Below are positions 150 to 57,047 of a stretch of 64,000 nt of DNA, in pieces. Both the position numbers and the translations under genes were made by a program. The notes under the pieces are model-generated. The model made no database searches and had not been told where the DNA came from. It was given only the letters and a program-made list of their open reading frames with translations. The DNA is taken from positions 258,960-322,959 of the forward strand of contig KE159798.1 of NCBI GenBank assembly GCA_000403475.2. Direction: 5' to 3'. How positions within the stretch are numbered: position 1 is the first letter of the stretch; each line of letters starts with the position of its first letter. The stretch comes from Lachnospiraceae bacterium MD308 (GTDB lineage: Bacteria; Bacillota; Clostridia; Lachnospirales; Lachnospiraceae).

Positions 150-162
150 GCTTACAAGTATC

Positions 163-194
163 GGGTTGAGGTTTTTAAAATCTCAACCCTTTTT
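163..194 (+). terminator. Intrinsic terminator after rpmE
   Basis: An 8-bp perfect stem GGGTTGAG / CTCAACCC is separated by an 11-base A/T-rich loop and followed directly by five T residues. It lies between the rpmE stop and the ribosome binding site of the DUF1385 gene. Confidence 0.85.
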
Positions 195-209
195 GTTAAA
201 GGAGAATTT

Positions 210-1950: not shown

Positions 1951-1971
1951 TTGTTATTAGGAGGATATAAG

Positions 1972-3042
1972 ATGTTTGACAAGTTAGAAGATTTACTTAT
2001 TCGCTTGGAGGAGATACTCAGCGAGCTTTCTGAGCCGGATGTGGCCAGTGACCAGAACAGGTTCCGCAAACTGATGAAAGAGCAGAACGATCTGACTCCC
2101 ATTGTGGAGACATATAAGGAATATAAAAGCTGTAAGCAGGCCATTGAGGACAGTCTGCAGATGCTTGAGGAAGAAAGCGACGAAGAGATGCGCGAGCTTG
2201 CCAAGGAGGAGCTTAATGATTCCAAGGCCAAGGTGGAGGAGTTAGAGCATGACCTTAAGGTGCTGCTGCTTCCGAAAGATCCCAACGATGACAAGAATGT
2301 CATGGTAGAAATCCGCGCAGGGGCTGGCGGCGACGAGGCAGCGTTGTTTGCGGCGGAGATCTACCGCATGTACATCCATTTTGCGGAGAGCAGGCGTTGG
2401 AAGGTGGAACTTGTGGAGTGTGAGGAGATCGGCATCGGCGGTATGAAGAATGTAACCTTTATGATTAACGGGAGCGGCGCCTACTCTGTGATGAAATATG
2501 AATCCGGTGTTCACCGTGTACAGCGGGTGCCGGAGACAGAGTCCGGCGGGCGTATTCACACATCCACCATTACTGTGGCAGTTATGCCGGAGGCTGAGGA
2601 AGTGGATGTGCAGATTGATGAGAAGGATATCCGCATTGATGTCATGCGTGCGTCCGGAAACGGCGGGCAGTGTGTCAATACAACGGATTCCGCGGTGCGC
2701 CTGACTCACTATCCGACGGGGATTGTTATCTACAGTCAGACGGAGAAATCGCAGCTTCAGAATAAAGACAAGGCATTTGCCCTCCTGCGTGCAAAACTCT
2801 ATGATATAGAATGTCAGAAGCGGCACGATGCGGAGGCAGAGGCAAGAAAGAGCCAGATCGGCACAGGGGACCGCTCAGAAAAGATCCGTACTTATAATTT
2901 CCCCCAGGGACGTGTGACAGATCACCGGATCGGCCTTACTTTGTATAAACTGGATAAGATTATGAACGGAGACATACAGGAGATTGTCGATGCCTGTATT
3001 GCAGCCGACCAGGCGGCGAAGTTAGCGTCCATGAATGATTAA
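1972..3042 (+). CDS. prfA: Peptide chain release factor 1
   Basis: RF1 recognises UAA and UAG stop codons and triggers peptide release on the ribosome. The 356-residue protein shows the catalytic GGQ motif ([11 protein letters not shown], residues 231-233) and a PxT stop-codon reading motif, here PET at about 187-189 within [17 protein letters not shown] 1972 is chosen because TTAGGAGGA lies at the right distance upstream; an in-frame TTG at 1951 would place the ribosome binding site inside the gene. It directly follows prmC, which modifies its GGQ glutamine, so the pair is a functional operon. Confidence 0.97.
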
Positions 3043-3062
3043 TTAATAAAGGACTATTAATA

Positions 3063-4793
3063 ATGAAAGAAAAACTGAAAAAACTGTTTGCATACTACGG
3101 TCCTTATAAATACTTGTTTTACAGTGATCTGTTTTTTGCAATACTTGGAGCGGCGGTGACCTTGGTCATTCCGCTCATTATCAGATATATTACTAATGAG
3201 GTGGTCTATTTTGGGCCTGACGAGGCAAAACAGGCGGTAATTACCATTGGTCTGGTGCTTCTCGGCCTGATTGCTCTGGAGGTTTTTTGTAATTTTTATA
3301 TTGCATATTATGGGCATATCATGGGGGCGAAGATGGAAGCAGATATGCGTAAGGATATTTTTGGACATTACCAGAAGCTAACCTTCGCCTTTTATGACAA
3401 CCAGAAGGTAGGACACCTCCTTTCACGGATTACCAGCGACCTTTTTGATATCAGCGAGCTTTTGCACCACGGGCCGGAAGATCTGGTGATCTCTGTCATC
3501 AAGATCATCGGCTCTTTTGTGATTCTTCTGGCAGTTAATGTAAAACTGGCGCTCATTATGTTTGCGTTTATTCCGGTTATGGTAATATTTGCCTTTTATT
3601 ATAACGGGAAGATGAAGACTGCATTTGTACATAACCGGGAAAAAATAGCGGATATCAATAGCCAGATTGAGGACAGTCTGGCGGGAATCCGCGTGGTGAA
3701 ATCCTTCGCGAATGAAAATGAAGAGATGAAAAAGTTCAAAGCGGGGAATGATAACTTTGTAAATGCAAAAAAAGTCAGCTATAAGTATATGGGAATCTAT
3801 CATTCCGGGCTTGGAGCTATGACGACGCTGGTCACTGTGGCGGTGATCACATCCGGCGTCGGAATGATGCTGTCCGGGGGCGTTGAGCTTACGGATCTGA
3901 TTACATTCCTTCTTTATATCAATAACTTTACAGATCCGGTGAAGAAGCTGGTCTCGTTTACCGAGCAGTTCCAGAACGGATACTCCGGCTTCGTCCGTTT
4001 CCTGGAGATTCTGGCAATTGCGCCGGATATTGCGGATAAGCCGGGTGCAGCCAGTCTGGAACACGTAGAGGGGAATATTGAGTTTGAAAATGTATCCTTC
4101 CACTATGAGGATACGTCTGAGCAGGTATTAAGCTCCATCAACCTTAAAGTCAGGGCAGGAGAGTATATCGCTCTTGTGGGGCCATCCGGTGTGGGAAAAA
4201 CTACGCTTTGCAGCCTGATTCCAAGATTTTACGAGGTGTCGGAGGGAAAGGTCTGTATCGACGGCATGGATATCCGGGATATCCGGCTGGAGAGTTTAAG
4301 AAATCATATCGGTATCGTGCAGCAGGATGTGTATCTGTTTGCGGGGACCATCATGGACAACATCCGCTACGGGAAGCCGGAAGCCTCTGACGAGGAGGTT
4401 GTGCGGGCGGCGAAACGCGCCAATGCCCATGATTTTATTATGAGCTTTCCTGACGGATATGATACAGATATCGGCCAGAGGGGCGTAAAGCTCTCCGGAG
4501 GGCAGAAACAGAGACTCTCGATTGCCAGGGTATTTTTAAAGAATCCGCCGATTCTCATTTTCGATGAAGCGACTTCGGCCCTTGACAATGAGAGCGAGCA
4601 GGTGGTGCAGAAGTCGCTGGAGAGTCTGGCTAAGAACCGGACAACCTTCGTGATCGCACACCGCCTTACAACGATTCGCAATGCGGGGAAGATTCTTGTG
4701 TTGACGGAAAAAGGAATCGCAGAGCAGGGAACCCACGAAGAGCTTTTAAAGCAAAAAGGCATCTACGAATCTTTGTACCATATGCATTTTTAG
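3063..4793 (+). CDS. ABC transporter, fused permease and ATPase
   Basis: A 576-residue half-transporter of the exporter (ABCB/MsbA) type. The N-terminal half carries about six membrane helices (roughly residues 20-300). The C-terminal ATPase domain has a Walker A motif GPSGVGKTT near residue 373, the signature LSGGQ near 477 and Walker B ILIFDEATSALD near 495-506, followed by an H-loop IAHRLTT. The protein probably works as a homodimer because no second half-transporter gene is adjacent. The gene starts 20 bases after prfA with AAAGGA ahead of the ATG. Substrate unknown; multidrug or lipid export is possible. Confidence 0.92.
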   Translation: MKEKLKKLFAYYGPYKYLFYSDLFFAILGAAVTLVIPLIIRYITNEVVYFGPDEAKQAVITIGLVLLGLIALEVFCNFYIAYYGHIMGAKMEADMRKDIFGHYQKLTFAFYDNQKVGHLLSRITSDLFDISELLHHGPEDLVISVIKIIGSFVILLAVNVKLALIMFAFIPVMVIFAFYYNGKMKTAFVHNREKIADINSQIEDSLAGIRVVKSFANENEEMKKFKAGNDNFVNAKKVSYKYMGIYHSGLGAMTTLVTVAVITSGVGMMLSGGVELTDLITFLLYINNFTDPVKKLVSFTEQFQNGYSGFVRFLEILAIAPDIADKPGAASLEHVEGNIEFENVSFHYEDTSEQVLSSINLKVRAGEYIALVGPSGVGKTTLCSLIPRFYEVSEGKVCIDGMDIRDIRLESLRNHIGIVQQDVYLFAGTIMDNIRYGKPEASDEEVVRAAKRANAHDFIMSFPDGYDTDIGQRGVKLSGGQKQRLSIARVFLKNPPILIFDEATSALDNESEQVVQKSLESLAKNRTTFVIAHRLTTIRNAGKILVLTEKGIAEQGTHEELLKQKGIYESLYHMHF

Positions 4794-4882
4794 CTGACAG
4801 TCCGGCTGTGTAGTGCCTTAAAGTTTACCCGGCCGTGTTGCAGATACAGCTAATAACAGACAGAACAGGAAAAGGATAATTT

Positions 4883-5788
4883 ATGGAAGAAATACAATTT
4901 AAACGGGCAGAACTGGAAGACAGGGAGATTATTTCACAGTATTTAAAGCATCACACGAGTAGGAGCTGTGAGCGTACTTTTGTCAATGTATTCTTATGGT
5001 CCAGGCAGTACCCGGTGAAATGGGCAGTCATCGAGGGCGCTCTCGTGTTTAAGAGCGAGGATGAGGAGCATGTGTCTTATGCTTTCCCGGCGGGGGATGA
5101 CGACAGCATAAAAAAGGCACTTGAGGTCATGAAAAGTTACAGCGAAGAGCGGGGCTATCCGTTTACGATGTACAATATCACGCCGGATAATTTCGCGAAG
5201 CTGGAGGAGTGGTATCCGGGCAGGTTTGAGATTGAGTATGACAGAGATTATGCAGATTATGTGTATGAGACCGAGAAGCTTGCTACTTTGTCCGGCAAGA
5301 AGCTTCATGGGAAACGCAACCATATCAACAAATTCAAAGCCATGTATGAAGGGCGTTGGAGCTATGAACCGATGTCTGAGTCAAACCTGGAGGAGTGTTT
5401 TCAGATGGCGCTTAAATGGCGCAATGAGAATGGCTGTGAGGAGGACGAGGAGAAGAACGCCGAGATGTGTGTAACCCTCAATGCCTTGAGGCTGTTTAAG
5501 GAACTGGAGCTTGTGGGAGGCATCCTGAAGATTGACGGGGAGGTGGCAGCCTTTACCCTTGGGGAGCCGGTCTGTTCGGACACTTTTGTGGTTCATATCG
5601 AGAAGGCTTACGCCGAAGTGCAAGGGGCGTATCCTATGATCAACCAGCAGTTTGTGGAGCATGAGTGCATGGACTATCAGTATGTTAACCGGGAGGAAGA
5701 TACGGGAGCCGAGGGCTTAAGAAAAGCGAAGCTTTCTTACCGTCCGGCATTCATGGTGGAAAAAGGCAACGTGAAGGAAAAACAGTAA
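4883..5788 (+). CDS. DUF2156 domain protein
   Basis: A 301-residue cytoplasmic protein that matches the DUF2156 family, which is related in fold to the C-terminal aminoacyl-lipid synthetase region of MprF and to GNAT-like acyltransferases. The N-terminal block with HHTSRSCERTFVNVFLW and the central GKKLHGKRNHINKF are the recognisable family segments. No membrane helices are seen, so it lacks the flippase part of MprF. It heads a run of four same-strand genes, with only 14 bases to the aminotransferase that follows. The reaction is unknown. Confidence 0.8.
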   Translation: MEEIQFKRAELEDREIISQYLKHHTSRSCERTFVNVFLWSRQYPVKWAVIEGALVFKSEDEEHVSYAFPAGDDDSIKKALEVMKSYSEERGYPFTMYNITPDNFAKLEEWYPGRFEIEYDRDYADYVYETEKLATLSGKKLHGKRNHINKFKAMYEGRWSYEPMSESNLEECFQMALKWRNENGCEEDEEKNAEMCVTLNALRLFKELELVGGILKIDGEVAAFTLGEPVCSDTFVVHIEKAYAEVQGAYPMINQQFVEHECMDYQYVNREEDTGAEGLRKAKLSYRPAFMVEKGNVKEKQ

Positions 5789-5802
5789 AGGAGAAGGAAA
5801 AG

Positions 5803-6990
5803 ATGATTGCAGAGAAGATGAAAAATATGGTGGCGAATAGTTCGGCCATACGTGCGATGTTCGAGGAAGGGAACCGACTGGCAAAAATTTACGGTGCTGA
5901 GAACGTGTTTGATTTCAGCCTTGGCAATCCCAATGTCCCGGCTCCGGAAGCAGTAAAAAAAGCAATATTTGAACTGCTTGAGGAGGAGGACCCGGTGGCG
6001 CTCCACGGCTACACTAACAGCAATTGCGGTTACGGGGATGTGCGGGAAGCAGTTGCCGTATCATTAAATGAAAGATTCGGCACTCATTTTGAGGGAAAAA
6101 ATATCGTCATGACGGTGGGCGCGGCGGGAGGACTTAATGTAATCTTAAAGTCGCTGATTAATCCGGGGGATGAAGTGATTGCCTTTGCGCCATATTTTGG
6201 AGAATATCGTTCTTATACGAACAATTATGACGGGGTACTGGTGGAGATTTCACCCAATACAGAAGATTTTCAGCCAAAGCTTGATGAATTTGAGCAAAAG
6301 ATTACGCCGAAGACGAAAGTGGTTATTGTCAATACGCCGAACAACCCGACGGGAGTTGTGTATTCGGAAGAGACGATAAAGAAGCTGGCGGCTGTCATGG
6401 AGGGAAAACAGAAGGAGTTTGGCACAGATATCTTCCTGATTTCGGATGAGCCGTATCGTGAACTTGTGTATGACGGTGTTCAAGTTCCATATCTGACTAA
6501 ATATTATGCCAATACGATTGTAGGATATTCCTACAGCAAGTCTCTTTCACTGCCGGGCGAGCGTATCGGATATCTGGTAATTCCGGACGAGGTGACAGAC
6601 AGCGAAGAGGTTCTTGCAGCGGCGAATGTTGCTACACGTATTTTGGGCTTTGTGAATGCACCGACTCTTCAGCAGAAGATCGTGGCGAAGTGTATGAACG
6701 AAAAGACGGATATTTCCTACTATGACCGTAACCGGGAGGCGCTGTATCAGGGACTTAGGGACTGCGGATTTTCCTGTATTAAACCTCAGGGGGCGTTCTA
6801 TCTTTTTGTGAAATCTCCGGTAGCTGATGAGAAGGAGTTCTGTGCGGCGGCAAAGAAGTATAATCTTCTTATCGTTCCGGGAAGTTCTTTTGCATGTCCG
6901 GGCTATGTTCGGCTAGCTTACTGCGTCTCCTATGAGACGATCATCAATTCCCTGCCCAAATTCCGGGAACTGGCAAAGGAGTATTTTTAG
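5803..6990 (+). CDS. Pyridoxal phosphate-dependent aminotransferase (class I/II)
   Basis: A 395-residue fold-type I aminotransferase. The cofactor lysine is visible in the motif SYSKSLSLPGERIGY at about residue 246, with NNPTG (TPNNPTGVVYS) near 173 and a C-terminal carboxylate-binding arginine region VRLAYC. The substrate cannot be read from the sequence; relatives act on aspartate, aromatic amino acids or alanine. AAGGAGAAGGAAAAG precedes the ATG. The next gene, a HisC-like aminotransferase, starts at the base after the stop codon, so the two are probably co-translated. Confidence 0.9.
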   Translation: MIAEKMKNMVANSSAIRAMFEEGNRLAKIYGAENVFDFSLGNPNVPAPEAVKKAIFELLEEEDPVALHGYTNSNCGYGDVREAVAVSLNERFGTHFEGKNIVMTVGAAGGLNVILKSLINPGDEVIAFAPYFGEYRSYTNNYDGVLVEISPNTEDFQPKLDEFEQKITPKTKVVIVNTPNNPTGVVYSEETIKKLAAVMEGKQKEFGTDIFLISDEPYRELVYDGVQVPYLTKYYANTIVGYSYSKSLSLPGERIGYLVIPDEVTDSEEVLAAANVATRILGFVNAPTLQQKIVAKCMNEKTDISYYDRNREALYQGLRDCGFSCIKPQGAFYLFVKSPVADEKEFCAAAKKYNLLIVPGSSFACPGYVRLAYCVSYETIINSLPKFRELAKEYF

Positions 6991-8049
6991 ATGAAAGCAT
7001 TTGAGAAAAATATCCGAAAGGTAGAGCCTTATGTTCCGGGAGAGCAGCCTTGGCAGACGGTGATAAAGTTAAATACGAATGAGAATCCTTACCCTCCTGC
7101 GCCGGGGGTTGCGCAGGTACTTCACACTATGGATGCAGACAGATTTAAACTATATCCGGACCCGACCGCAGGAGAGCTTGTGAAGGCGCTGGCCGATTAT
7201 TACGATGTGAGCGAGGAGCAGGTGTTTGTGGGCGTTGGCTCTGACGATGTACTGTCCATGTGTTTTCTCACGTTTTTTAATTCGGAAAAACCTGTGCTTT
7301 TTCCGGATATTACGTATTCTTTTTATAAAGTATGGGCGAACCTTTATAGAATACCTTATGAGTGTTGCCCGGTGGATGAGAATTTCCGTATCGTGAAGGA
7401 AGATTATTTTAGGGAAAATGGAGGGATTATCTTCCCAAATCCCAATGCGCCCACGGGACTTTACCTGGAGCTGTGTGAGGTGGAGGAGATTATTGCCCAC
7501 AACCGGGACGTGATTGTGATTGTAGATGAGGCGTATATAGATTTTGCCGGGAAATCAGCGTTAGAGCTTATTGAAAAGTATGATAACCTGATTGTCGTCC
7601 AGACATTTTCTAAAGCGCGCTCTATGGCAGGTATGAGGATTGGATATGCAATCAGCAACCCATTGCTGATTCAGTATCTCAACGATGCGAAGTATTCCTT
7701 CAATTCCTATACCATGAGTCAGGCTGCGATTGCCTGCGGCGTGGAAGCGGTGAAGGATAAGGAATATTTTGAGAACGGAATCCGTAAGATAATTAACACC
7801 AGAGAATGGGCGAAAAAGGAGCTTGGGCGGCTTGGATTTACATGCCTTGATTCTGAGGCGAATTTTATCTTTGCGACCCACCCGAAGTATGATATTAAAA
7901 AGATGTATGAGGCGCTGAAAAACGAGGCGAAGATCTATGTGCGTTATTGGGGCAGTGAGCGGATTGAGCAGTATATCCGCATAACTGTCGGCACAAAGGA
8001 TGAGATGGATGCGCTGCTCGGATTTTTAGAAGGGTATACGCAGAAATAA
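6991..8049 (+). CDS. hisC: Histidinol-phosphate aminotransferase-like protein
   Basis: A 352-residue fold-type I PLP enzyme of the HisC branch. It starts with the family pattern of an N-terminal VEPYVPGEQPW segment, has KLNTNENPYPPAPGV, and its cofactor lysine (TFSKARSMAGMRIGYA) is at about residue 208. HisC transfers an amino group to imidazole-acetol phosphate in histidine synthesis; members of this branch can also act on aromatic or threonine-phosphate substrates. No other his genes are present nearby, so histidine synthesis is not confirmed by context. The start abuts the stop of the preceding aminotransferase. Confidence 0.85.
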   Translation: MKAFEKNIRKVEPYVPGEQPWQTVIKLNTNENPYPPAPGVAQVLHTMDADRFKLYPDPTAGELVKALADYYDVSEEQVFVGVGSDDVLSMCFLTFFNSEKPVLFPDITYSFYKVWANLYRIPYECCPVDENFRIVKEDYFRENGGIIFPNPNAPTGLYLELCEVEEIIAHNRDVIVIVDEAYIDFAGKSALELIEKYDNLIVVQTFSKARSMAGMRIGYAISNPLLIQYLNDAKYSFNSYTMSQAAIACGVEAVKDKEYFENGIRKIINTREWAKKELGRLGFTCLDSEANFIFATHPKYDIKKMYEALKNEAKIYVRYWGSERIEQYIRITVGTKDEMDALLGFLEGYTQK

Positions 8050-47658: not shown

Positions 47659-48157
47659 ACTGGTTTTGATGGATAATAATATTCTTGCCTGTGAACACGG
47701 AATAATACAGTTGATCAGCATGATTGGGAGCGGATACAGGATTGACATCAACCAGGGGATGGATGCCCGGCTGGTTGATGATGAAATAGCGGATATATTA
47801 TCCCGGCTGAAATGGAGCCGGTTCATACGCTTCTCATGTGATCAGAAATCCCAGATAGAACCAATCAGGAATACGATTGAACTGTTGGGGAAGTATGGCG
47901 TAAAGCCTTACAGAATTTTTATTTATCTGTTAGTAACGGCAGATATCAAGGATGCTTCGGATAGGGTAGAGGCATTGAAGAAATATAAAGCAATCAATCT
48001 GTACGCCCAGGCAGAACGTAATGAAAGGCTGGGGATTATTCCTGATAGAATGCAGCTGGAATTCCAACAGAGGTACATATATGGTGGCTGCTACCGGAAT
48101 GAGACATGGGAAGAATATTGTAAAAGAAAAGGTCTGAAAAACGGGGTGGTATTTTGA
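47549..48157 (+). pseudogene. Radical SAM protein, N-terminally truncated
   Basis: The frame encodes 202 residues and begins nearly at the cluster motif CPNHCRWC (CX3CX2C, residues 5-12), followed by VVPEKEGN, LMDNNILACEHGI and INQGMDARLVDDEI. Phage radical SAM proteins of this kind usually have about 100 residues before the cysteine motif. Here a stop codon lies nine bases upstream of the first ATG and no ribosome binding site is present, so the N-terminal region is lost. The gene overlaps the zinc-ribbon gene in another frame by 110 bases. It may be non-functional. Confidence 0.7.
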
Positions 48158-49776
48158 AAAACGGATTAATCATAGACTGCTTCGCCGGTGGCGGCGGGGC
48201 AAGCGTAGGGATAGAAATGGCATTAGGCAGGCAGGTGGATATAGCCATCAACCATGATCCGGACGCCATCCGGATGCATAAGACCAATCATCCGGACACA
48301 CTGCATCTGACAGAGGATATCTTTAAGGTTGACTTGCAGAAATACGTAAGAGGTCGGCATGTGTCCTTGATGTGGGCGAGTCCCGACTGCACAAGCCACA
48401 GTAAGGCAAAGGGCGGGCAGCCCAGAAAACGGGGATTACGAATATTGCCATGGGCAGTATATAAGCATGCGAAAGTGATTCTGCCGTACGTGATCATCAT
48501 GGAAAATGTGGAGGAAATTCAGCAGTGGGGGCCGTTGGACTCAGGCGGTCACCCGATACCAGAGAGGAAAGGCGAAGATTATAAGAAATTTGTCACAGCT
48601 ATGAAGTCATTGGGATATACTTTTGATAGCCGGGAACTGGTGGCAGCAGATTACGGAGCGCCTACGACACGTAAGCGCTGGTATGCAATATTCCGGAGAG
48701 ATGATAAGGAGATAGTTTGGCCGGAGCAGACACACAGCAAAGGCGGTGTGAATGGTTTGAAAGCATGGGAGCCAATCTGTAAATATCTGGATTTAGGGGA
48801 TATGGGGAAATCCATTTTTGGAAGGAAAAAGCCGCTGGCCGAAAATACCATGAAGAGGATTGCAAGAGGGCTGGAGAAGTTCGTGTTTGGAAATCCGGAG
48901 CCGTTTATCATCAAGGTTACGCACAAGTATGACCAGTTCCGGGGGCATTCCATGCATGAGCCGTTACAGACAATCACGTCAAAGAATGACACTGCACTAG
49001 TGACACCGTATATCATGCAGATCGGGCAGACCGGATTTACAAAAGACCGTAATAGGGCGGTAGATGAAGCTTTGAGTACTATTGTCACGAAAAATGAGCA
49101 CTGCCTGGTTAGTCCGCTTCTGATCCAGTACCATTCCGAAACTACGAAGAACGGGGTTCGGGGACAGCTGGTTACAGAACCGGTTCAAACGATAGATACA
49201 AGCAACCGCTATGGGCTCGTAATATCCTATCTGACAAAATTCTATAAAAGCGGTACCGGACAAATGATGTCTGAGCCGGTACATACGATCACCACATCAC
49301 CCGGGCATTTCGGTACCGTATCTGTTCTGACTGTGGACTGGAAAGAGCTGCGGGAAACAGGGATTGATGAAGAGACAGCACAAAAATGTACATGGGTATC
49401 ACAATTCATTATGGAATATTACGGATGTGGTACCGGGCAGGCGTTAACAAAACCGATGCATACCGTGGTGACGAAAGACAGGTTCGCGTTGATCACAGTT
49501 CTGGGAAATGAGTATGTAATAATGGATATCTTCCTGCGTATGCTAAATCCGGAGGAGCTGAAATTAGGGCAGGGATTTCCGAAGGATTACATCATTGAAC
49601 ATGATTATAATGGAAACAGATACCCGGTCAGTAAGCAAGTGGCGCGGATCGGCAATAGTGTGGTTCCGATCATGGCGCGAAAGTTGGTAGAAGCGAACTG
49701 CAGCTATCTAAAGGTTGGGGAGCGGATGCCAAACATGAGGATAGATGACAGTGGGGAGCAGTTAAGGTTTGCGTGA
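48154..49776 (+). CDS. DNA cytosine-5 methyltransferase
   Basis: A 540-residue enzyme that transfers a methyl group from S-adenosylmethionine to cytosine C5. Motif I is IDCFAGGGGASVGIEMALG (residues 6-24); the catalytic Cys lies in WASPDCTSHSKAKGG (about 75-89), an SPDC variant of the usual PPC; IMENVEE is motif VI; and QVARIGNSVVP near 505 is motif X. Between about residues 250 and 460 the target-recognition region has several repeats built around EP-TI-T units. The TTG start at 48154 overlaps the preceding stop. No partner restriction gene is seen, so it probably protects phage DNA. Confidence 0.9.
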   Translation: MKNGLIIDCFAGGGGASVGIEMALGRQVDIAINHDPDAIRMHKTNHPDTLHLTEDIFKVDLQKYVRGRHVSLMWASPDCTSHSKAKGGQPRKRGLRILPWAVYKHAKVILPYVIIMENVEEIQQWGPLDSGGHPIPERKGEDYKKFVTAMKSLGYTFDSRELVAADYGAPTTRKRWYAIFRRDDKEIVWPEQTHSKGGVNGLKAWEPICKYLDLGDMGKSIFGRKKPLAENTMKRIARGLEKFVFGNPEPFIIKVTHKYDQFRGHSMHEPLQTITSKNDTALVTPYIMQIGQTGFTKDRNRAVDEALSTIVTKNEHCLVSPLLIQYHSETTKNGVRGQLVTEPVQTIDTSNRYGLVISYLTKFYKSGTGQMMSEPVHTITTSPGHFGTVSVLTVDWKELRETGIDEETAQKCTWVSQFIMEYYGCGTGQALTKPMHTVVTKDRFALITVLGNEYVIMDIFLRMLNPEELKLGQGFPKDYIIEHDYNGNRYPVSKQVARIGNSVVPIMARKLVEANCSYLKVGERMPNMRIDDSGEQLRFA

Positions 49777-49816: not shown

Positions 49817-50098
49817 GTGAAAGAAAACAGGAAGATGAAATTTAGCAAGGCGAAGTTCCTGAAAAATGCGCCAATAGGAATAAGGCGGCAGTTAAAGGGA
49901 CATGAGAATGCTTTGGACGGGGTAGAGGTTATTTTTGACGGAAGGTTCGGCAGGGATGGTTATATACCGCGGTATCTTGCAAACGGGAAGGAGTATTATT
50001 TATACCCGGTATATAGAAGCTGGTGCCACAAATCTGATGATATGGGAGATAACGGAAGTATAGAGGAGGTTCAAGGAAATGAAATGGTCATGGAATGA
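49817..50098 (+). CDS. Hypothetical phage protein (93 residues)
   Basis: GTG 49817 follows GGGAG at six bases and gives 93 residues; ATG 49835 is possible. The protein has a basic start (KFSKAKFLKNAPIGIRRQL) and a beta-rich end (DGYIPRYLANGKEYYLYPVY). It has no recognisable domain. Short proteins with this W/Y-rich end are frequent in clostridial phage accessory regions. The last 20 bases overlap the next gene. Confidence 0.6.
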   Translation: MKENRKMKFSKAKFLKNAPIGIRRQLKGHENALDGVEVIFDGRFGRDGYIPRYLANGKEYYLYPVYRSWCHKSDDMGDNGSIEEVQGNEMVME

Positions 50099-50474
50099 AA
50101 GAGATAGTGAATGCTGGACGCATGGTACATTCGATACAAAAGAAGAAGCCATAGAAGATGCTTATGGGTGTAAAGAGATGATAAAGAGAGATGGATTTTA
50201 TAGTGATGACGAGGATCCAATGATTTACATTGGTCAGTGCGAATATATACCACTACGGACAGATTTGGATGCAGATCGGGAACTTGAGTATCTGGCTGAA
50301 CTGTATTGTGACGAATCTGGATGTGATTACTATATCTATGAAGGTGTTTCAGATGAAGATAAGAAATGGCTTGAACAAAAGTTATCCTCAGTAATGGAAG
50401 AATTTCACGAAAGAGTCGGTATGAAACCAAACTGGTTCAGAATTGTGAATATGGAAAGTTTTGTGCTTCACTAA
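50079..50474 (+). CDS. Hypothetical phage protein (131 residues)
   Basis: An acidic 131-residue protein (KWSWNERDSECWTHGTFDTK, then EEAIEDAYGCKEMIKRDG, later VSDEDKKWLEQKLSSVMEEF). The Trp-rich start and helical end are seen in phage proteins of unknown function in this group. AGGAGGTTCAAGG precedes the ATG. No domain recognised. Confidence 0.6.
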   Translation: MKWSWNERDSECWTHGTFDTKEEAIEDAYGCKEMIKRDGFYSDDEDPMIYIGQCEYIPLRTDLDADRELEYLAELYCDESGCDYYIYEGVSDEDKKWLEQKLSSVMEEFHERVGMKPNWFRIVNMESFVLH

Positions 50475-50553
50475 GTGGAGGGAAAGGGAACTATGAACAA
50501 ACAAGAATGGAGAAAGGAAAAGGAGACAAGTTTTTGTTAGGAGGTTAATAACC

Positions 50554-50847
50554 ATGCAATATGAGGTAATAAGCAGAGATTATATATCAAATTGCTTGAT
50601 AGAAGCTGTAAGGGCAAAGTTGAGAAAAAATCAAGTTAAAATCTACATCTGCAGGCCGAGGATAACAGAAAACGGGCATTTTCAGATGTTTCACTGCATG
50701 TGGGAGGATGAAAAGGGAAGCTATGATTTTTCTGAACCTGAAGCAGTAGGGCTTCCACCGTGGAAGCAGCTTTTATTCAAAGGGCATATTAGAAAATTCG
50801 AAAAAGGATTTGCAGAAAAGTATTCATCATATAGAAACGGTAATTGA
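50554..50847 (+). CDS. Hypothetical phage protein (97 residues)
   Basis: A 97-residue protein with a helical first part (YISNCLIEAVRAKLRKNQV) and a beta-rich second part (KIYICRPRITENGHFQMFHC). GTTAGGAGG precedes the ATG. No known family recognised. The end comes shortly before the next gene's start. Confidence 0.55.
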   Translation: MQYEVISRDYISNCLIEAVRAKLRKNQVKIYICRPRITENGHFQMFHCMWEDEKGSYDFSEPEAVGLPPWKQLLFKGHIRKFEKGFAEKYSSYRNGN

Positions 50848-50878
50848 ATTTCAAGGAAATATGGAGGGAAAGAGAAAT

Positions 50879-51487
50879 ATGGAGAGATTAACAGAACGCA
50901 CCGGGGAAGGACAGGCTATTCCACGGATGGACTTAAAGAATAACGGGCATCAGAGATGTATGGAACGTCTGGCAGAATACGAGGACTTAGAGGAGCGAGG
51001 GAAACTTCCTTGTAAGTGGATATCGGAAGAAAGGCCTCCGGAAGCCCCATGCTATGTATTGCTGTCGTTTGACAACTTTTCAATGCCATTGATAGGGAGA
51101 TACGAAGAGGATGAAGAGGGTGGAGCATTTTACATAGGCGACGATGAAGAAAGCTGCATCAGCCAGGATCTTATAGTCAATGGTTGGATGCCATTGCCAG
51201 AACCATACAGTGAAGACGCGGGAAAAGAGCTTAGGCAGGGCCATCCGACAGAAAAAAGAAAAGTTGCCACACAGGATGCAAAGATGGCAGCAGACATCGA
51301 GCAGGCAATCAAATATTTTGAAGACGAGCTGTCACAGATAAAGGTATTCTCCGGCATCGTTTCTTTTCAAGAAAGGGAGAGGAAGAGTATAGAAACGGCC
51401 TTGAAGGTCTTGTATGAAGCACAGAAAGAAAGCCCGAAGGGGCAGCAGGACGGCCCAATGTGCGACATCGCACAGGTAAAGGAGTAA
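50879..51487 (+). CDS. Phage protein with DUF551-like domain
   Basis: A 202-residue protein. ATG 50879 is chosen as it follows ATGGAGGG and begins the frequent phage opening MERLTERTGEGQA, with a helical CMERLAEYEDLEE segment. Residues about 45-115 resemble the DUF551 domain, with the paired signatures KWISEERPPEAPCYVLLSF and GWMPLPEPY. The C-terminal part is helical. DUF551 proteins are widespread in phages and their function is unknown. Confidence 0.75.
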   Translation: MERLTERTGEGQAIPRMDLKNNGHQRCMERLAEYEDLEERGKLPCKWISEERPPEAPCYVLLSFDNFSMPLIGRYEEDEEGGAFYIGDDEESCISQDLIVNGWMPLPEPYSEDAGKELRQGHPTEKRKVATQDAKMAADIEQAIKYFEDELSQIKVFSGIVSFQERERKSIETALKVLYEAQKESPKGQQDGPMCDIAQVKE

Positions 51488-51515
51488 CGGATGGCAGCGG
51501 CTAAGGAGGAATTAT

Positions 51516-51785
51516 ATGGAAGAAGCAAAGATATGCCCTGTTTGCGGCGGGAAAGTTACTGCTAAAAATAGAAAATATTGTAGCCCGAAGTGTTCAAAGG
51601 AAGGATACCGGAGAAGGCAGGCAAAATACAGTATTGAAAAATACCATAAAGATAAACGGATAAAAGAAGATGGGAAGCCAAAGGAAGAAAGGCCGATAGA
51701 GGCGCTTGCCAGGAAGGCGAGGGAGGCGGGAATGTCTTACGGGCAGTATGTTGCTTTAGAATATGCAAAGATAAGAAGGGGTTGA
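51516..51785 (+). CDS. Small zinc-ribbon phage protein (89 residues)
   Basis: An 89-residue basic protein with an N-terminal zinc site formed by CPVCGGKV and CSPKCSKEGYRRRQ (residues 7-31), followed by a lysine-rich linker and a C-terminal helix (ALARKAREAGMSYGQYVALE). It lies just before the late regulator and may bind nucleic acid. CTAAGGAGG precedes the ATG. Confidence 0.7.
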   Translation: MEEAKICPVCGGKVTAKNRKYCSPKCSKEGYRRRQAKYSIEKYHKDKRIKEDGKPKEERPIEALARKAREAGMSYGQYVALEYAKIRRG

Positions 51786-51791
51786 TAACAT

Positions 51792-52244
51792 ATGCAGACA
51801 GTGCAGACGGAGAATGAACAGAAAAAACGGTACCTGAGAGGCTACCGAACCCACGTCCGGAGGATTAACCGGATAAAGGCGGAGCTTGAAGAACTAAGGG
51901 AAATGCGGCTGTCAATGACAATGAACAATGATGGGATGCCGCATGGCTCCGGCCAGTCGGATCTGTCTGGATATGCGGCGGAACTGGACAGGAAGGAGCG
52001 GGATCTCGAAAGGGAACGTTGTGAGAGGATGCAGACCTACGAGGACATAGCAGAGAGGATTGAAAAGTTAAAAAGCGAGAATGAGAAAGATGTGCTGTTC
52101 TATCGGTATATGTCGGGGCTTGCCTGGTGGGAGATTGCGGAGAAGATGACGTTCTCTGAAAGGCATGTGACAAGGTTACATGGGAAGGCCTTAGCACATC
52201 TTGAAATTCCGAAAGATGTCCTAGAATGTCCTATTGACATATGA
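51792..52244 (+). CDS. Sigma-70 region 4-like late gene regulator (RinA/ArpU type)
   Basis: A 150-residue protein with a long coiled coil (about residues 20-100) and a C-terminal helix-turn-helix (EIAEKMTFSERHVTRLHGKALAHL) of the sigma region 4 kind. Proteins of this layout stand directly before the terminase genes in many Gram-positive phages and switch on late transcription. It is the last gene before the hairpins and terminator at 52259-52335. Confidence 0.8.
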   Translation: MQTVQTENEQKKRYLRGYRTHVRRINRIKAELEELREMRLSMTMNNDGMPHGSGQSDLSGYAAELDRKERDLERERCERMQTYEDIAERIEKLKSENEKDVLFYRYMSGLAWWEIAEKMTFSERHVTRLHGKALAHLEIPKDVLECPIDI

Positions 52245-52258
52245 TATTATGGTATCAT

Positions 52259-52287
52259 CGAGAAACGCAAGGAAATTAAGTTTCTCG
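52259..52287 (+). other. Hairpin downstream of the late regulator
   Basis: CGAGAAAC pairs perfectly with GTTTCTCG across a 13-base loop. A 6-bp inverted repeat ATGATA / TATCAT and a TTGACA lie just upstream (52234-52258). The terminator follows 15 bases later. Confidence 0.5.
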
Positions 52288-52301
52288 CCCACACAATATG
52301 G

Positions 52302-52335
52302 AAAAGGCGTTCTGTAGAAAACAGGGCGTCTTTTT
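52302..52335 (+). terminator. Intrinsic terminator after the late regulator
   Basis: Arms of 14 bases (AAAAGGCGTTCTGT and ACAGGGCGTCTTTT, three wobble pairs) close on a five-base loop, and the T run continues. It ends the early transcript before the two-gene cassette. Confidence 0.8.
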
Positions 52336-52336
52336 A

Positions 52337-52365
52337 TTGAAAACATATACTTAATATGCTAATAT
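52337..52365 (+). promoter_or_regulatory. Promoter of the two-gene cassette
   Basis: TTGAAA and TAATAT are 17 bases apart, directly after the terminator and 34 bases before the first cassette gene. It gives the cassette independent expression, probably also in the lysogen. Confidence 0.65.
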
Positions 52366-52398
52366 AAATGCGTACTTAAGCAGAACGAGGATAATTGT

Positions 52399-52890
52399 AT
52401 GATATTTATTTGTATAATTTTGGGGATTATAGCTCTTGGAGAGAGTATATTTATATTGTGGGTAGTAAAATGGAATGATGAAGAGAGAACGATTGGAGAT
52501 AAAATAAATTTTTTTAGAAATTTATGGGGGAAATTTCTTTTTTATGTGTTGGCAACAAGTATTATAGGATTATTTTTGGGAAGTGTGTATTTCAAAAAAG
52601 TAATTGGCTTGGATGTAATTAATACGTGGGTAGGGATAGTACTTGGACTTGTTGCTTTAATAATTGGCATCATTTCCTTGTTTTTGAGTTTTTATAATGT
52701 AGATCAGGCAAACAAAACTCAAGAAAAAACAATTGAAATTATAACTAATTTACAAAGAGATATTGAAAGAAAGATAGATGAGAATTATGAAAAAACGAGA
52801 CAGGAGATAAAAGGAAATTACAATAATTCTACTGCTAATTTTAGAAATTACAATTCGGAAAGTTCACAGTGGGAGGATAATAATGAGTAA
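52399..52890 (+). CDS. Cassette gene 1: membrane protein with C-terminal coiled coil
   Basis: A 163-residue protein of no recognised family. Three hydrophobic segments lie at about residues 2-22, 45-66 and 78-101, followed by a charged coiled-coil region (about 102-145, ANKTQEKTIEIITNLQRDI) and an Asn/Ser-rich tail. It is very AT-rich compared with the phage genes on both sides. The start lies after AACGAGGATAATTG. It overlaps the next gene by eight bases, so the two proteins are probably made together and may interact. Position and own promoter suggest a moron with a role in the lysogen, such as superinfection exclusion. Confidence 0.7.
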   Translation: MIFICIILGIIALGESIFILWVVKWNDEERTIGDKINFFRNLWGKFLFYVLATSIIGLFLGSVYFKKVIGLDVINTWVGIVLGLVALIIGIISLFLSFYNVDQANKTQEKTIEIITNLQRDIERKIDENYEKTRQEIKGNYNNSTANFRNYNSESSQWEDNNE

Positions 52891-53374
52891 TATTAACATT
52901 TGTGCGTTTATTTGTAAAAATGCAGATGAACAAGAGCAAACAATTAAAAATATAATGAATGAAATTGAAAAGGTAGATGAGGAAAAGCTTTCTTTGTTCA
53001 TAGCTACCATTATAAATGGAGTTGAGGTTGAGAGAGATAAATTTTATTTGGATTATTTCATTCGGTATGTATGTGATTTTGAGCAGAATAATAAAAAGGG
53101 GCCATTTACTCATCTTTTCTCATTAATTATACAAAAAGATGAAATGCAAAAGTTAGGTAATAAAGGAAGTCAGGAATTAAAAGCGGCCTATAAAAATGCA
53201 TTTTTCAGTACGTCATATGATGCGATAAAGATTAAGTTTCCCCAAAAAGGATTTTATGAATTGGAAGTGTTTGAAGATGAAAAAGAAATAAAAGGAGACT
53301 GGCGTAAAAGATATAGAAGATACGAAAAAGATAATCATAAACCTGTTTCAGTATATAGTTTTGTAGTTAAATGA
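52883..53374 (+). CDS. Cassette gene 2: soluble partner protein
   Basis: A 163-residue soluble protein of no recognised family. It starts with a beta strand and acidic helix (INICAFICKNADEQEQTIKN), continues with FLDYFIRYV-like aromatic helices (FYLDYFIRYVCDFEQNNKKG) and ends in a basic region (GDWRKRYRRYEKDNHK). GGGAGGATAATA lies before ATG 52883, inside the previous gene. Like its partner it is AT-rich. A strong terminator follows 23 bases after the stop, closing the cassette. Confidence 0.7.
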   Translation: MSNINICAFICKNADEQEQTIKNIMNEIEKVDEEKLSLFIATIINGVEVERDKFYLDYFIRYVCDFEQNNKKGPFTHLFSLIIQKDEMQKLGNKGSQELKAAYKNAFFSTSYDAIKIKFPQKGFYELEVFEDEKEIKGDWRKRYRRYEKDNHKPVSVYSFVVK

Positions 53375-53396
53375 TTTGTATAAGATTTTCCAACAT

Positions 53397-53433
53397 AAAA
53401 AGAGCATCCGAAATAATTCCGGGTGCTCTTTTT
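53397..53433 (+). terminator. Terminator closing the two-gene cassette
   Basis: Arms of 14 bases (AAAAAGAGCATCCG and CGGGTGCTCTTTTT) pair with one wobble across a nine-base loop, ending in a T run. It separates the cassette from the terminase operon. Confidence 0.9.
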
Positions 53434-53477
53434 ATACAAGAAAATGTGTGGCATTGCACAGGAGAGAGGTGGTGGGA

Positions 53478-54398
53478 TTGCCAAAATGCAGAAGTAAAAA
53501 TAGAGATAAAGCTTTTGAGATATACAAAGAACACAATGGAGAGATTACCAACAGAAAGATTGCAGAGCTTCTCGGAGAGAAAGAGAACACGATCAGCAAT
53601 TGGAAATGTAGAGATAAATGGAATGTAGTACTACAAAAGAATGATTGTAGTACTACGAAAAAAAGAAGAGGCGTTTTGCCCAAAAACAAAAAGGTAATTA
53701 CTGAGGAAGTTGAACAGGTAACTGAAAACAGTGAATTGACTGATAAACAACAGCTTTTTTGCTGCATTTACATTCGTTGTTTTAACGCTACAAAGGCATA
53801 TCAGAAAGCTTATGGAGTGAATTATAATACAGCGATGGCAGCAGGTCCAAGGATGTTAGGGAATGCTAGAATAAAAAAGGAGATACAGAAGCTAAAACAA
53901 GCAAGATTAAACCGCGAAATGCTAGAGGAATCAGACATCTTCCAAAAGTATATGGACATTGCTTTCGCTGATATGAATGATTATGTACAATTCGGCCGGG
54001 AAAACATCCCGGTCATGGGTCCATACGGGCCGATAGAAGTAAAGGATAAAGCGACAGGGAAAAAGAAAATGCTCACAAAAGAGGTCAATGTTGTTAAGTT
54101 CCGGGAATCTTTGGAAGTAGACGGAACCTTGATTAGTGAAGTGAAGCAGGGGAAGGATGGAGCCAGTATTAAGTTGGCAGACCGCATGAGAGCTCTTGAT
54201 TGGTTAGCGTCTCATATGGATCTTGCCACCGAGGAGCAGAAGGCCAGGATAGAGCAGCTGAAAGCGAACACAGAACGAATCCAGAGGGATTCCAACATTG
54301 ATGAAGACGAAGGAGTTGAGATATACAATGATGCGCCGCAAAAACCAGGTGAAGATATCGGAAATCATCATCCCGAAGTATCTTCCGATATTCAATGA
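53478..54398 (+). CDS. Terminase small subunit
   Basis: A 306-residue DNA-binding packaging protein. The opening LPKCRSKNRDKAFEIYKEH followed by a helix-turn-helix (TNRKIAELLGEKENTISNWK) is the typical start of PBSX-type small terminases. The central ELTDKQQLFCCIYIRCFNATKAYQ is the Terminase_2 core, and a long helical C-terminal part follows. The TTG start at 53478 fits the family; GTG 53472 is an alternative and the purine-rich GGAGAGAGGTGG lies just ahead. It recognises the packaging site and recruits the large subunit, whose gene overlaps its end by 71 bases. Confidence 0.9.
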   Translation: MPKCRSKNRDKAFEIYKEHNGEITNRKIAELLGEKENTISNWKCRDKWNVVLQKNDCSTTKKRRGVLPKNKKVITEEVEQVTENSELTDKQQLFCCIYIRCFNATKAYQKAYGVNYNTAMAAGPRMLGNARIKKEIQKLKQARLNREMLEESDIFQKYMDIAFADMNDYVQFGRENIPVMGPYGPIEVKDKATGKKKMLTKEVNVVKFRESLEVDGTLISEVKQGKDGASIKLADRMRALDWLASHMDLATEEQKARIEQLKANTERIQRDSNIDEDEGVEIYNDAPQKPGEDIGNHHPEVSSDIQ

Positions 54399-55686
54399 CA
54401 CAAAAATCAAGCATATCATTCTGACTTCAGGACGCGCGGGAACCAAATCCAGCTATGCGGCTATCCGTTCTAACTACCAGATAGTTGCCGATGCACATGG
54501 TTCTGTGGTGGTGCTGAGAAAGCATCATAATAAGCTGAGGAAGACGGTGTACAAAGAGATGCTCCGGGGCATTGGACGGCTCAAGATACCGAAGAGCAAG
54601 TTTCGCATTATGAAGTCACCGATGGAGATTACCTATAAGAAGAACGGCTCTACAATCTATTTCTCTGGGTCAGACGGAATTGATGATACAAAGGGCATCA
54701 TTGACGAGGACAAGCCGATCAAGCTGGTTGTCATTGACGAGCTCACGGAGTTCTTTGAGGATGGGGAAGGAGAGGATGAGCTGTCAAACATTGAGGCTAC
54801 GTTCGTCCGCGGCAACAGCAGCGGATTCCAGATGATTTACCTGTATAACCCACCAAAGAATCCTAATGCGCCGGTAAACCAGTGGTGCAAAAAGATGGAA
54901 GAGAGGGAGGATTGCCTGCACATCCATACGGATTACAGGGATGTTCCGGAAAGCTGGCTGGGGCGTGACCTCATAGAGTCGGCGGAAGAGATGAAAAAAT
55001 CTGACCCGAAATTATACCGCTGGATCTGGCTAGGGGAATCTATTGGGGTGGATGATCTGATCTACTATATGTTCGATGCCAAAGCACATATCTATGATTC
55101 GGAAATATTTACAGGGGAATCCAAAGAGGCGATAGGAGAGATTGGGATTGGAGTGGATTACGGGCAGCAGAACCCGACAGTGTTCGAGGCATTCGGCATT
55201 GATTATGAGAAACAATTATTCCGGGGTTTAAAGGAATATTATCATTCTGGGCGCGAGACCGGGAAACAGAAGTCTCCTTCAGAATACGCTAAGGATCTGA
55301 AACAGTTTTGCGATGCGATTGAAAAGGAATATAAGCGGGTGGTCAGCGGTATCTATATAGACCCGTCGGCAGCAGGACTGATTGAAGAAGTCAGGAGGCA
55401 GCTCCCCCATATAGATATTATTCCTGCGAGGAATGATGTCAAGCTCGGAATCAGCAGGGTGCAGAAATTCCTGTCTTTCAACAGGATGGCAGTCAGCACG
55501 TCGCAGAAATGGCTGATCCGGGAGATGGGGCTGTACCAGTACGATCCTAAGAGCATTGAAAAGGGCAAGGAGGAGCCAGTGAAAGTTTCAGATCACTGCA
55601 TGGATGCCTGCCGCTATGTCCTAGTTGGGATGTGGCGTCAGATTGTCTATATGCTGCCGGTATCAGAAAGGGGTGATGAGGATTGA
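54328..55686 (+). CDS. Terminase large subunit (PBSX family)
   Basis: The ATPase-nuclease motor that packs DNA into the prohead. In 452 residues it shows the family start SEIIIPKYLPIFND, a deviant Walker A LTSGRAGTKSS near residue 28, Walker B KLVVIDELTEFFED near 133, and the nuclease aspartate segment IGIGVDYGQQNPT near 272. The tandem ATG at 54328/54331 is preceded by GAAGGAG; a start at 54298 is possible but not supported by the family. The end overlaps the portal gene by four bases. Confidence 0.93.
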   Translation: MMRRKNQVKISEIIIPKYLPIFNDTKIKHIILTSGRAGTKSSYAAIRSNYQIVADAHGSVVVLRKHHNKLRKTVYKEMLRGIGRLKIPKSKFRIMKSPMEITYKKNGSTIYFSGSDGIDDTKGIIDEDKPIKLVVIDELTEFFEDGEGEDELSNIEATFVRGNSSGFQMIYLYNPPKNPNAPVNQWCKKMEEREDCLHIHTDYRDVPESWLGRDLIESAEEMKKSDPKLYRWIWLGESIGVDDLIYYMFDAKAHIYDSEIFTGESKEAIGEIGIGVDYGQQNPTVFEAFGIDYEKQLFRGLKEYYHSGRETGKQKSPSEYAKDLKQFCDAIEKEYKRVVSGIYIDPSAAGLIEEVRRQLPHIDIIPARNDVKLGISRVQKFLSFNRMAVSTSQKWLIREMGLYQYDPKSIEKGKEEPVKVSDHCMDACRYVLVGMWRQIVYMLPVSERGDED

Positions 55687-57047
55687 TACAATATGAAAAT
55701 ATTCAGAAGGCGATGGGCGTGGACATTGCGGTTTCGGGCAGCATGTCGAACGCTATCCACCGATGGAGCAATATGTACACGAACCGCGCCCCGTGGCTGA
55801 AGGACGGGGTGAAGAGCTTAAACCTTCCTGCTGCGATATGTACGGAGATGGCCCGGCTTGTGACGATGGAATCAGAGGTCAGCGTTACAGGGAGCCAGAG
55901 GGCAGATATGATAGCCAGATGCCTGATACCCTTCCTGGAAAAACTTTCGGTGTACGTAGAGTATGCATGCAGTACGGGAGGAATTCTGTTCAAACCTTAT
56001 GTGTCAGGCGGGCGGGTGTTCATAGATGTGGCCAAGACAGGGTATTTCTATCCGGTTGAATTTGACAGCTCCGGTGCGATAACCGGTGCCATTTCCCCGG
56101 AGTTTAAGCGGAAGGGGAAGAAACTGTACACCAGGCTTGAATACCAGCATCTTTCAGGCAGCAGGTATGTTGTTGTCAATAAAGCGTTTATGAGCCGGAA
56201 GGCGCAGGTGAGGAATGACGATATCATCAACATCGGCCAGGAAATCCGGCTGGAGGAAGTGCCGGAATGGGCAGACATCGAGCCATATGTAGAATTTGGC
56301 AATGCGGACAGGACGCTGTTTTCTTATTTCAGCATCCCGATAGCGAATAATACGGATCCGGAATCGCCTCTTGGTGTGTCGGTGTATGCAAGGGCGGAGG
56401 AGCAGATTAAGGACGCAGATGAGCAATATGGGGCAACGATTTGGGAGTTCCGCTCCAAAGAGACGGCGGTTCAGGCGGCAAGGGAGTTTTTTAAGAAGGA
56501 CAGGCAGGGCAATGCAGTTCTCCCGAAAGGGAAAGAAAGGCTTTATCATGATATGGGTGCAAATATCTCCGATATCACGGGCAAGCCTTTTTTTAATGTA
56601 TATTCGCCGGAAATCCGGGATGTAAGCTTTTTCAACGGGTATAACCGGATTATTCAGAAGGTGGAGTTTAACAGCGGTCTTGCTTATGGAACTCTTTCTG
56701 ACCCGCAGACGGTGGAAAAGACAGCGGAGGAGATTAAGGTCAGCAAGCAGCGTTCCTATGCTACCGTCAAATCCATACAGAACAGTCTGGAAAATGCCAT
56801 TCATGACCTTGTAGGAGCTATTGACGCATGGATGACAATAGAGGGGCTTGCGCCTCCCGGGGTGGTGGACGTATCGGTTTCCTGGGATGATTCCCTTGTC
56901 ACTGACAAGGAGACCGAGCGGCAGCAGGACAGGCAGGATGTAGCCATAGGCGCCATGGGGGTAGACGAGTATCGGGCGAAATGGTACGGGGAGACAATCG
57001 AACAGGCGAGGCGCAATCTCCCGAAGCAGAATACGGTAATGGAGTGA
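55683..57047 (+). CDS. Phage portal protein
   Basis: A 454-residue protein of the A118/SPP1-like portal group. It opens with the segment AIHRWSNMYTNRAPWLKDGV, continues with SLNLPAAICTEMARLVTMES, and ends in a helical part (SKQRSYATVKSIQNSLENAI). Twelve copies form the ring through which DNA enters and leaves the head. The TTG start at 55683 overlaps the terminase stop and is preceded by GGGGTGATGAGG. Confidence 0.9.
   Translation: MIQYENIQKAMGVDIAVSGSMSNAIHRWSNMYTNRAPWLKDGVKSLNLPAAICTEMARLVTMESEVSVTGSQRADMIARCLIPFLEKLSVYVEYACSTGGILFKPYVSGGRVFIDVAKTGYFYPVEFDSSGAITGAISPEFKRKGKKLYTRLEYQHLSGSRYVVVNKAFMSRKAQVRNDDIINIGQEIRLEEVPEWADIEPYVEFGNADRTLFSYFSIPIANNTDPESPLGVSVYARAEEQIKDADEQYGATIWEFRSKETAVQAAREFFKKDRQGNAVLPKGKERLYHDMGANISDITGKPFFNVYSPEIRDVSFFNGYNRIIQKVEFNSGLAYGTLSDPQTVEKTAEEIKVSKQRSYATVKSIQNSLENAIHDLVGAIDAWMTIEGLAPPGVVDVSVSWDDSLVTDKETERQQDRQDVAIGAMGVDEYRAKWYGETIEQARRNLPKQNTVME

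Follow-up and report, generated by a model that had tools for sequence, protein, structure and literature searches.

Two overlapping genes, designated A and B, form in a prophage of Lachnospiraceae bacterium MD308 a mobile cargo unit that occupies the space between the gene of a late transcriptional regulator and the terminase genes, a conclusion that is well supported. The anatomy of the pair, the co-occurrence of its two members, their position in this slot, and their mobility are shown by the 64,000-nucleotide stretch analyzed here (the window) and by related loci. By analogy with described systems, A and B may constitute a mobile two-component exclusion or abortive-infection system of prophages, a reading whose probability we place just short of even. 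If it is correct, the known prophage defenses would gain a SLATT-like effector that has a protein partner of its own and no messenger-making enzyme, and the regulator–terminase gap of these Lachnospiraceae phages would be a cargo slot in which further candidate defenses could be found. A candidate function would then also exist for the gene pairs of known phages that include a DUF6941 gene.

Anatomy of the gene pair and its prophage

All features of the slot lie on the forward strand. Its left boundary is the gene of a late transcriptional regulator with sigma-70 region 4 (51792..52244; PHROG 36, 2.1e-24; Pfam Sigma70_r4, 2.3e-5), which we take to be ArpU-like, and its right boundary is the gene of the terminase small subunit, TerS (53478..54398; PHROG 2606, 2.4e-100), with that of the large subunit, TerL, beyond it (54298..55686; Pfam Terminase_3, 6.7e-27). 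The slot contains the terminator of the upstream operon (52301..52335; −18.8 kcal/mol, z −5.85), a promoter-like site (52337..52365; TTGAAA-17-TAATAT, with TG before the second hexamer), gene A (52399..52890; 163 aa), gene B (52883..53374; 163 aa), which overlaps A by 8 nt, and the closing terminator of the cassette (53395..53435), which is able to fold on either strand (−22.1 kcal/mol, z −8.83 on the plus strand; −21.5 kcal/mol, z −7.03 on the minus strand). The two overlapping reading frames and both strong hairpins are as described in the initial annotation, none of 200 shuffles being equally good for either hairpin. A scanner for consensus terminators listed neither of them on the plus strand, and the second one only as a minus-strand reading.

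The cassette had also been described as bounded by terminators and as having its own promoter, and each of these claims stands in part. The closing hairpin belongs to the cassette, but the first terminator is a feature of the slot, since it is present after the regulator in 15 of the 19 slots scanned, including all nine empty ones. The promoter-like site is present and recurs in slots bearing the pair, but alone it is not above chance, with a score of 9 out of 12 and 17 such sites found in positions 50001–56000 versus 13.7 expected. With a looser score, in which TG is worth one extra point and the threshold is 9 or more, a site located 3' of the terminator is found in all four pair-bearing slots (the window, L018, L020, and L021, the last with a poor first hexamer) versus two of the nine empty slots. 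The A+T-richness that had been noted for the pair is evident in its GC content, which is 0.283 in A and 0.287 in B, compared with 0.492 in the regulator, 0.405 in TerS, and 0.477 in TerL; the value for the pair ties for the lowest among 540 segments of 976 nt each taken from 36–64 kb of the window (mean 0.461, sd 0.048).

The source genome (G000) comprises 4.46 Mb in four contigs, and the same DNA is present in an IMG/VR contig (44,268 nt); judging by the coordinates of that contig, the start of the prophage would be at about 35.8 kb of the window. Its holin gene (G000:C4:334276-334638; PF05105, 2.3e-29) is directly followed by a gene for a GH25 endolysin (PF01183, 6.2e-19), both of them within G000:C4:334276-335273, approximately 22 kb downstream of A and B. 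The prophage also encodes a C5 cytosine DNA methylase (48154-49776; Pfam, 4.5e-24).

The position of the pair next to late genes, together with a methylase found in the same slot of another phage (L035), would suit counter-defense or anti-exclusion genes that act on infection of a new host and not in the lysogen. However, the promoter-like site upstream and the terminator downstream insulate A and B from late transcription, and we give such a role only a slim chance.

Relatives of the pair and cargo of the slot

Nine distinct loci with gene A were found, namely the window, L018 (also numbered L004 and L007), L019 (L008), L020, L021 (L009), L010, L011, L054, and L061. L018 belongs to Mediterraneibacter glycyrrhizinilyticus (Lachnospiraceae), L020 to [Ruminococcus] faecis, L021 to a Hespellia MAG (the hosts of the last two are presumably Lachnospiraceae as well), and L019 to Lachnoclostridium An14. 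A B-type gene directly follows A in eight of these loci, that is, in all except L019, where the next gene is not B-like and has a homolog (blastp, 1e-11) in viral contig L047, within the slot next to the regulator gene. By hhalign, the probability of a link is 97.5% between the A subgroups, of which there are two, and just 62.5% between the two B subgroups. The homologous soluble proteins of L047 (4568-5059) and L019 (4674-5201) are without a Pfam match; the former is encoded in a phage slot beside a 75-aa gene, and the latter on a chromosome beside an A gene.

Among 397 genomes of the bacterial family, 12 gave A matches at E ≤ 0.001, six of them with real relatives (the source genome, G322, which is a member of the same bacterial family, G369, G353, G288, and G143); the remaining six matches are weak (1e-5 to 1e-3), and at two of these (L012 and L013) ordinary chromosomal genes were seen by eye; the weak matches were set aside. 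B was found in three of the 397, the third of which (L005) was discounted as a 51-residue stretch with two stops. At the level of the order, A matched in seven of 392 genomes, the real relatives being those of the source genome and G604, and L055, L058, and L060 were set aside, no B being seen there by eye; at the level of the class, the six matches among 391 genomes comprise the source genome and five weak ones (1.8e-4 to 9.5e-4). A scan of 84,980 species genomes yielded four loci. In 50,697 phage records, tblastn with A or B produced nothing beyond partial matches with E values from 0.5 to 9. Scans of viral contigs with A or B of the window or with query A3 returned only the window's own contig, those with queries A4 and A7 added one further contig (L061/L062), and that with query A12 added nothing further.

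Four prophages (those of the window, L018, L021, and L020) have the pair between the regulator and TerS, preceded by a terminator and a promoter-like site, and the closing terminator was detected by the scan in three of these four slots, L020 being the exception. The A proteins of these prophages are 35–62% identical, whereas in the same comparisons identity between the B proteins is 23–30%; such faster divergence of B is what a sensor might show. The regulators of the window and L018 are 58% identical and those of L021 and L020 23% (z 8.4), while the cross pairs between the two groups reach 19–27% with a z of 2.6–3.7, a marginal likeness. TerS of the window is 31–41% identical to each of its three counterparts (z 10–21), which are not alike among themselves (15–21%, z −1.1 to 1.2). 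Since A is similar where the regulators and TerS are partly unrelated, the distribution of the pair goes beyond what the relatedness of its flanks would account for, although part of the sharing could reflect common descent of the flank, as the identities of the window's TerS with the other three and of its regulator with that of L018 suggest.

The regulator has relatives in 19 loci among viral contigs, the window's own included, and seven of them carry cargo. Apart from A and B, this cargo consists of a D12 methylase accompanied by a 71-aa ORF (L035), HicAB (L040 and its near-twin L041), HicB (L051), an uncharacterized pair of 163 and 75 aa (L047), and another uncharacterized pair, of a 326-aa soluble protein (4548-5528) and a 154-aa protein with four TM helices (5550-6014), in L052. 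The L052 pair matches nothing in Pfam over cut-off or in PADLOC at E ≤ 0.05; its layout is likewise RexAB-like. Ten of the 19 loci begin, by eye, straight with TerS or an HNH gene, and L048 and L050 were placed neither with cargo nor with empty slots. No copy of A and B was seen by eye in the 18 other regulator loci or in eight of the 11 TerS-relative loci, the own locus (L023) and the near-duplicates L025 and L029 having been left out. The expectation that the slot would hold different gene pairs in relatives is thus borne out by HicAB, the D12 methylase, and the L047 and L052 pairs, with other slots empty, and A and B are not a conserved presence in all related phages. The earlier view of the pair as a moron gains support from its promoter-like site, terminators, odd composition, and the lack of a copy in the relatives inspected by eye, as well as from the other cargo in the slot and the recurrence of the same pair amid partly unrelated flanks.

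HicAB in the slot of L040 and L041, and HicB in that of L051, favor the chief rival of the exclusion reading, which is built from the same parts: a toxin–antitoxin (addiction) module, with a membrane toxin A restrained by B, that would make the cell retain the prophage. Toxin–antitoxin modules typically consist of overlapping genes under a promoter of their own, and this too counts for the rival. In L020, however, A is intact and B (4410-4900) is divided between two frames, with the break close to six consecutive G residues, which speaks against such a module because a toxin without its antitoxin should not be allowed, unless the split is an assembly error or a fragment of B still works; assembly error, decay, and phase variation are all possible causes of the break. 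The partner of A can, moreover, be an unrelated protein, as in L019, and we consider a toxin–antitoxin module unlikely.

Outside the slot, relatives were seen by eye next to phage tail genes (L065), in a viral contig (L061), on chromosomes (L063 and L019), and in a probable conjugative element (L064). The copies not located in phages (L063, L019, and L064) could point to lysogenic-conversion genes that aid the envelope or fitness of the host and have nothing to do with phages, yet the four loci with the closest pairs all belong to one phage slot that elsewhere holds HicAB or a methylase, making such a function distinctly unlikely. An ORF beside the distant pair of L061 (2844-3725, minus strand) presumably resembles class III nucleotidyl cyclase-like proteins, judging by eye.

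Predicted features of proteins A and B

The initial description of A as a membrane protein with three helices agrees with its hydropathy, which places TM helices at residues 2–20, 46–64, and 78–96, and a coiled coil can be discerned by eye; some relatives of A have two TM helices. The predicted model, of low confidence (pLDDT 62.5), comprises helices 2–25, 32–64, and 71–162. According to both hydropathy and this model, the second and third TM helices are followed by a helix that would extend to the end of the chain, an arrangement that may be comparable to the two TM helices plus helical extension of SLATT proteins. The charges favor a cytoplasmic location of the C-terminal tail. The A-type protein of L019 (3878-4627) carries choline-binding repeats after its last helix, in a part that charges predict to be cytoplasmic, and such repeats are a misfit with a cytoplasmic tail.

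The TM part of A matches no Pfam or NCBIfam model over cut-off, whereas the choline-binding repeats of L019 do pass. The best matches of A are at 0.0015 in PHROGs and at 2.5e-5 in PADLOC (LeoBC), with further weak PADLOC matches in the A family to RT-SLATT (3.5e-5, L009) and LeoB. All nine A proteins match one or more SLATT models of NCBIfam at E ≤ 1 (weakest 0.24), and none of the nine reversed sequences does. The curated SLATT cut-offs are reached by no A protein, the best being that of L021 with 26.9 bits of 55 (SLATT_4, 3.7e-6), and A of the window scores 20.1 bits of the 60 needed for SLATT_5. Single SLATT matches of such size mean little, since reversed sequences reach 6.6e-5 on unrelated models, and the nine matches are not independent, as the proteins are homologous; the mob_CxxC_CxxC model also recurs, in six of the nine. 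With the cut-offs missed, formal membership of A in SLATT was rejected, and prediction supports describing A as weakly SLATT-like. A sequence search of solved structures with A returned nothing at E ≤ 1.

Three TM helices and a charged tail, as well as weak matches to Pfam Phage_holin_3_6 (0.02) and spanin PHROG 739 (0.021), might be taken as signs of a late structural or lysis function, with a holin-like A and a helper. However, the prophage has the separate holin and endolysin described above, and none of the other related phages examined showed the pair, so that this role is very improbable. The identity of A as a holin or spanin was rejected in view of the weakness of the matches and the location of the lysis cassette elsewhere, and neither A nor B clearly matches any tail, packaging, or lysis protein.

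Protein B is soluble, as had been proposed, with no TM helix by hydropathy. Its best match in PHROGs is at 0.14, with none in PADLOC and no Pfam or NCBIfam model over cut-off, and the earlier statement that A and B belong to no known family holds within these four collections. A sequence search of solved structures with B gave four matches of 0.38–0.85, which were taken as noise. The fold of B is supported by prediction: its model, from four sequences, is an eight-strand sandwich (pLDDT 78.6, pTM 0.75); alignment A8, which included B of L061, was visibly misaligned and was left out of the folding. The matches of this model among solved structures are of a general Ig type, with a query-normalized TM below 0.5, and mostly are not immune proteins. 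The AGS-C domain of the Pycsar cyclase ranks 13th (E 3.3e-3) and is preceded by several Ig-like proteins that are unrelated.

The viral model closest to that of B is of a 165-aa siphovirus protein (1e-10, TM 0.71); second, as found with Foldseek, comes one from Anoxybacillus phage A403, of a protein with 134 aa (3.7e-6, TM 0.50/0.59). The sole 134-aa CDS in positions 1–8,000 and 17,000–40,847 of A403 belongs to DUF6941 (29.3 bits) and, as far as these two regions go, is presumably the protein modeled. The DUF6941 cut-off (PF22091) is 27 bits; B of the window has no match and that of L021 reaches 17.1 bits, while hhalign comparisons of B with four DUF6941 proteins gave 3.2%, 3.5%, and 0.5%. On these grounds, B was rejected as a formal member of DUF6941. 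As sequence profiles do not join the two, the link between them relies on predicted fold and layout, and B is best described as a predicted Ig-like β-sandwich akin to DUF6941 phage proteins by predicted fold only.

Six phages with DUF6941-like genes were examined (Leuconostoc phiMH1, Lactococcus 38502, Aeribacillus AP45, Anoxybacillus A403, and Staphylococcus StB12 and 71). The cut-off is passed in five, phage 71 being below it at 15.1 bits, and in all six a second gene, encoding a helical partner, immediately follows. Four of the five partners scored have one TM helix near the C terminus and that of phiMH1 has none; the partner in A403 is similar by eye. In five of the six, the annotation places the pairs next to lysin, holin, integrase, or recombinase genes, and that of phage 71 gives only ORF numbers. 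These pairs resemble A and B in combining a protein that is sandwich-like by predicted fold with a helical one, but the gene order is reversed, and the partner mostly has a single C-terminal TM helix, unlike A by eye. DUF6941 exceeds the cut-off in one of 150 genomes of the family and in none of 14 controls. Such pairs of a DUF6941 gene and a helical, mostly membrane-anchored partner in known Firmicute phages (L069–L073 and L075) are apparently unnamed cargo modules; no mention of DUF6941 was found among 5.39 million papers.

Comparison with known systems and possible mechanism

RexAB-type systems are found in lambda, the P1 prophage of Pseudomonas putida, mycobacteriophages Sbash and Butters, and Gordonia phage CarolAnn. 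In the available text on these systems, damage to the membrane upon infection is caused by a membrane protein under the control of a cytoplasmic one (PMC7542560, PMC12894663), and membrane damage or depolarization with abortive infection is described for RexAB-type systems (PMC12894663) and for lambda and Sbash in particular (PMC7542560). The soluble part of the Butters system is described there as protecting by itself (PMC7542560, PMC12894663), so parts of such systems can work otherwise. The pair resembles them in consisting of two prophage-borne genes for one soluble and one multi-pass membrane protein. RexB and the membrane parts of Sbash, CarolAnn, and Butters are given four TM helices (in the text available from PMC7542560), whereas A has two or three and a long helix, and B is a predicted β-sandwich, in contrast to the DNA-binding RexA. 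No match named RexA or RexB was found for A or B in Pfam, PHROGs, PADLOC, or NCBIfam.

SLATT effectors with two TM helices associate with CBASS/SMODS, TIR, and reverse transcriptases. Passages of the literature predict SLATT to be a pore-forming effector (PMC7159879) and report it with TIR genes in Firmicute phages (PMC9503650). Protein A resembles these effectors in its recurrent weak profile matches and, as predicted, in a TM pair followed by a helical tail, but it remains below every curated cut-off. No nucleotide-making, SLOG, TIR, or RT gene is located beside the pair among the window neighbors searched (regulator and terminase); in L018, L020, and L021, where the neighbors were read as ORFs, no SLATT-type enzyme partner was seen beside the pair either. 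Another membrane-anchored prophage protein, PdpSau of Staphylococcus aureus, causes abortive infection; in the available text (PMC10127798) it is a single 278-aa protein encoded downstream of an amidase, and we claim no homology to A or B. The text available from PMC11087260, on Tha of S. aureus prophages, contains nothing bearing on the regulator–terminase slot, and titles and abstract openings of the literature on prophage defense hotspots, superinfection exclusion, and AGS-C revealed no paper on A and B.

An anti-phage or exclusion function is plausible by analogy, given the SLATT-like membrane protein, the RexAB-like layout, and the occupation of this slot by HicAB or a methylase in other phages, although two of the supports of this reading are weakened by the reversed-sequence controls and the shared TerS. 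In the exclusion mechanism that we propose, A and B would be transcribed in the lysogen from their own promoter, insulated by the terminators from the late operon. Cytoplasmic B would recognize or relay a sign of infection and engage the cytoplasmic helix of A, which would then depolarize or permeabilize the membrane, so that the rival phage would fail and the host would be protected. This would be the logic of Rex with other parts, B acting as sensor or adaptor and A as the SLATT-like membrane effector.

A broader proposal, which we consider unlikely, is that the pair represents a single branch of an extensive, as yet undescribed class of immunity systems that consist of two genes and are carried by prophages of Firmicutes. 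In such a class, a cytoplasmic Ig-like sandwich, either B-type or DUF6941, would serve as a sensor that can be exchanged. The effector would be a helical protein tethered to the membrane, either the SLATT-like A or, in phages of Staphylococcus, Lactococcus, and Bacillaceae, one of the partners that mostly have a single TM helix, and the two components would communicate without a nucleotide messenger. With the AGS-C domain of the Pycsar cyclase among the solved folds near that of B, the latter may be a free-standing protein related to a known immune sensor.

A minor observation concerns the slot itself: of 28 loci scanned, seven have tRNA genes (Met CAT or Ile TAT) that separate the regulator gene from the genes for terminase or HNH proteins (L020, 4969-5040; L021, 1902-1975; L047, 5493-5564; L052, 6063-6134; the near-twins L040, 2354-2425, and L041, 5302-5373; and L049, 4535-4607).
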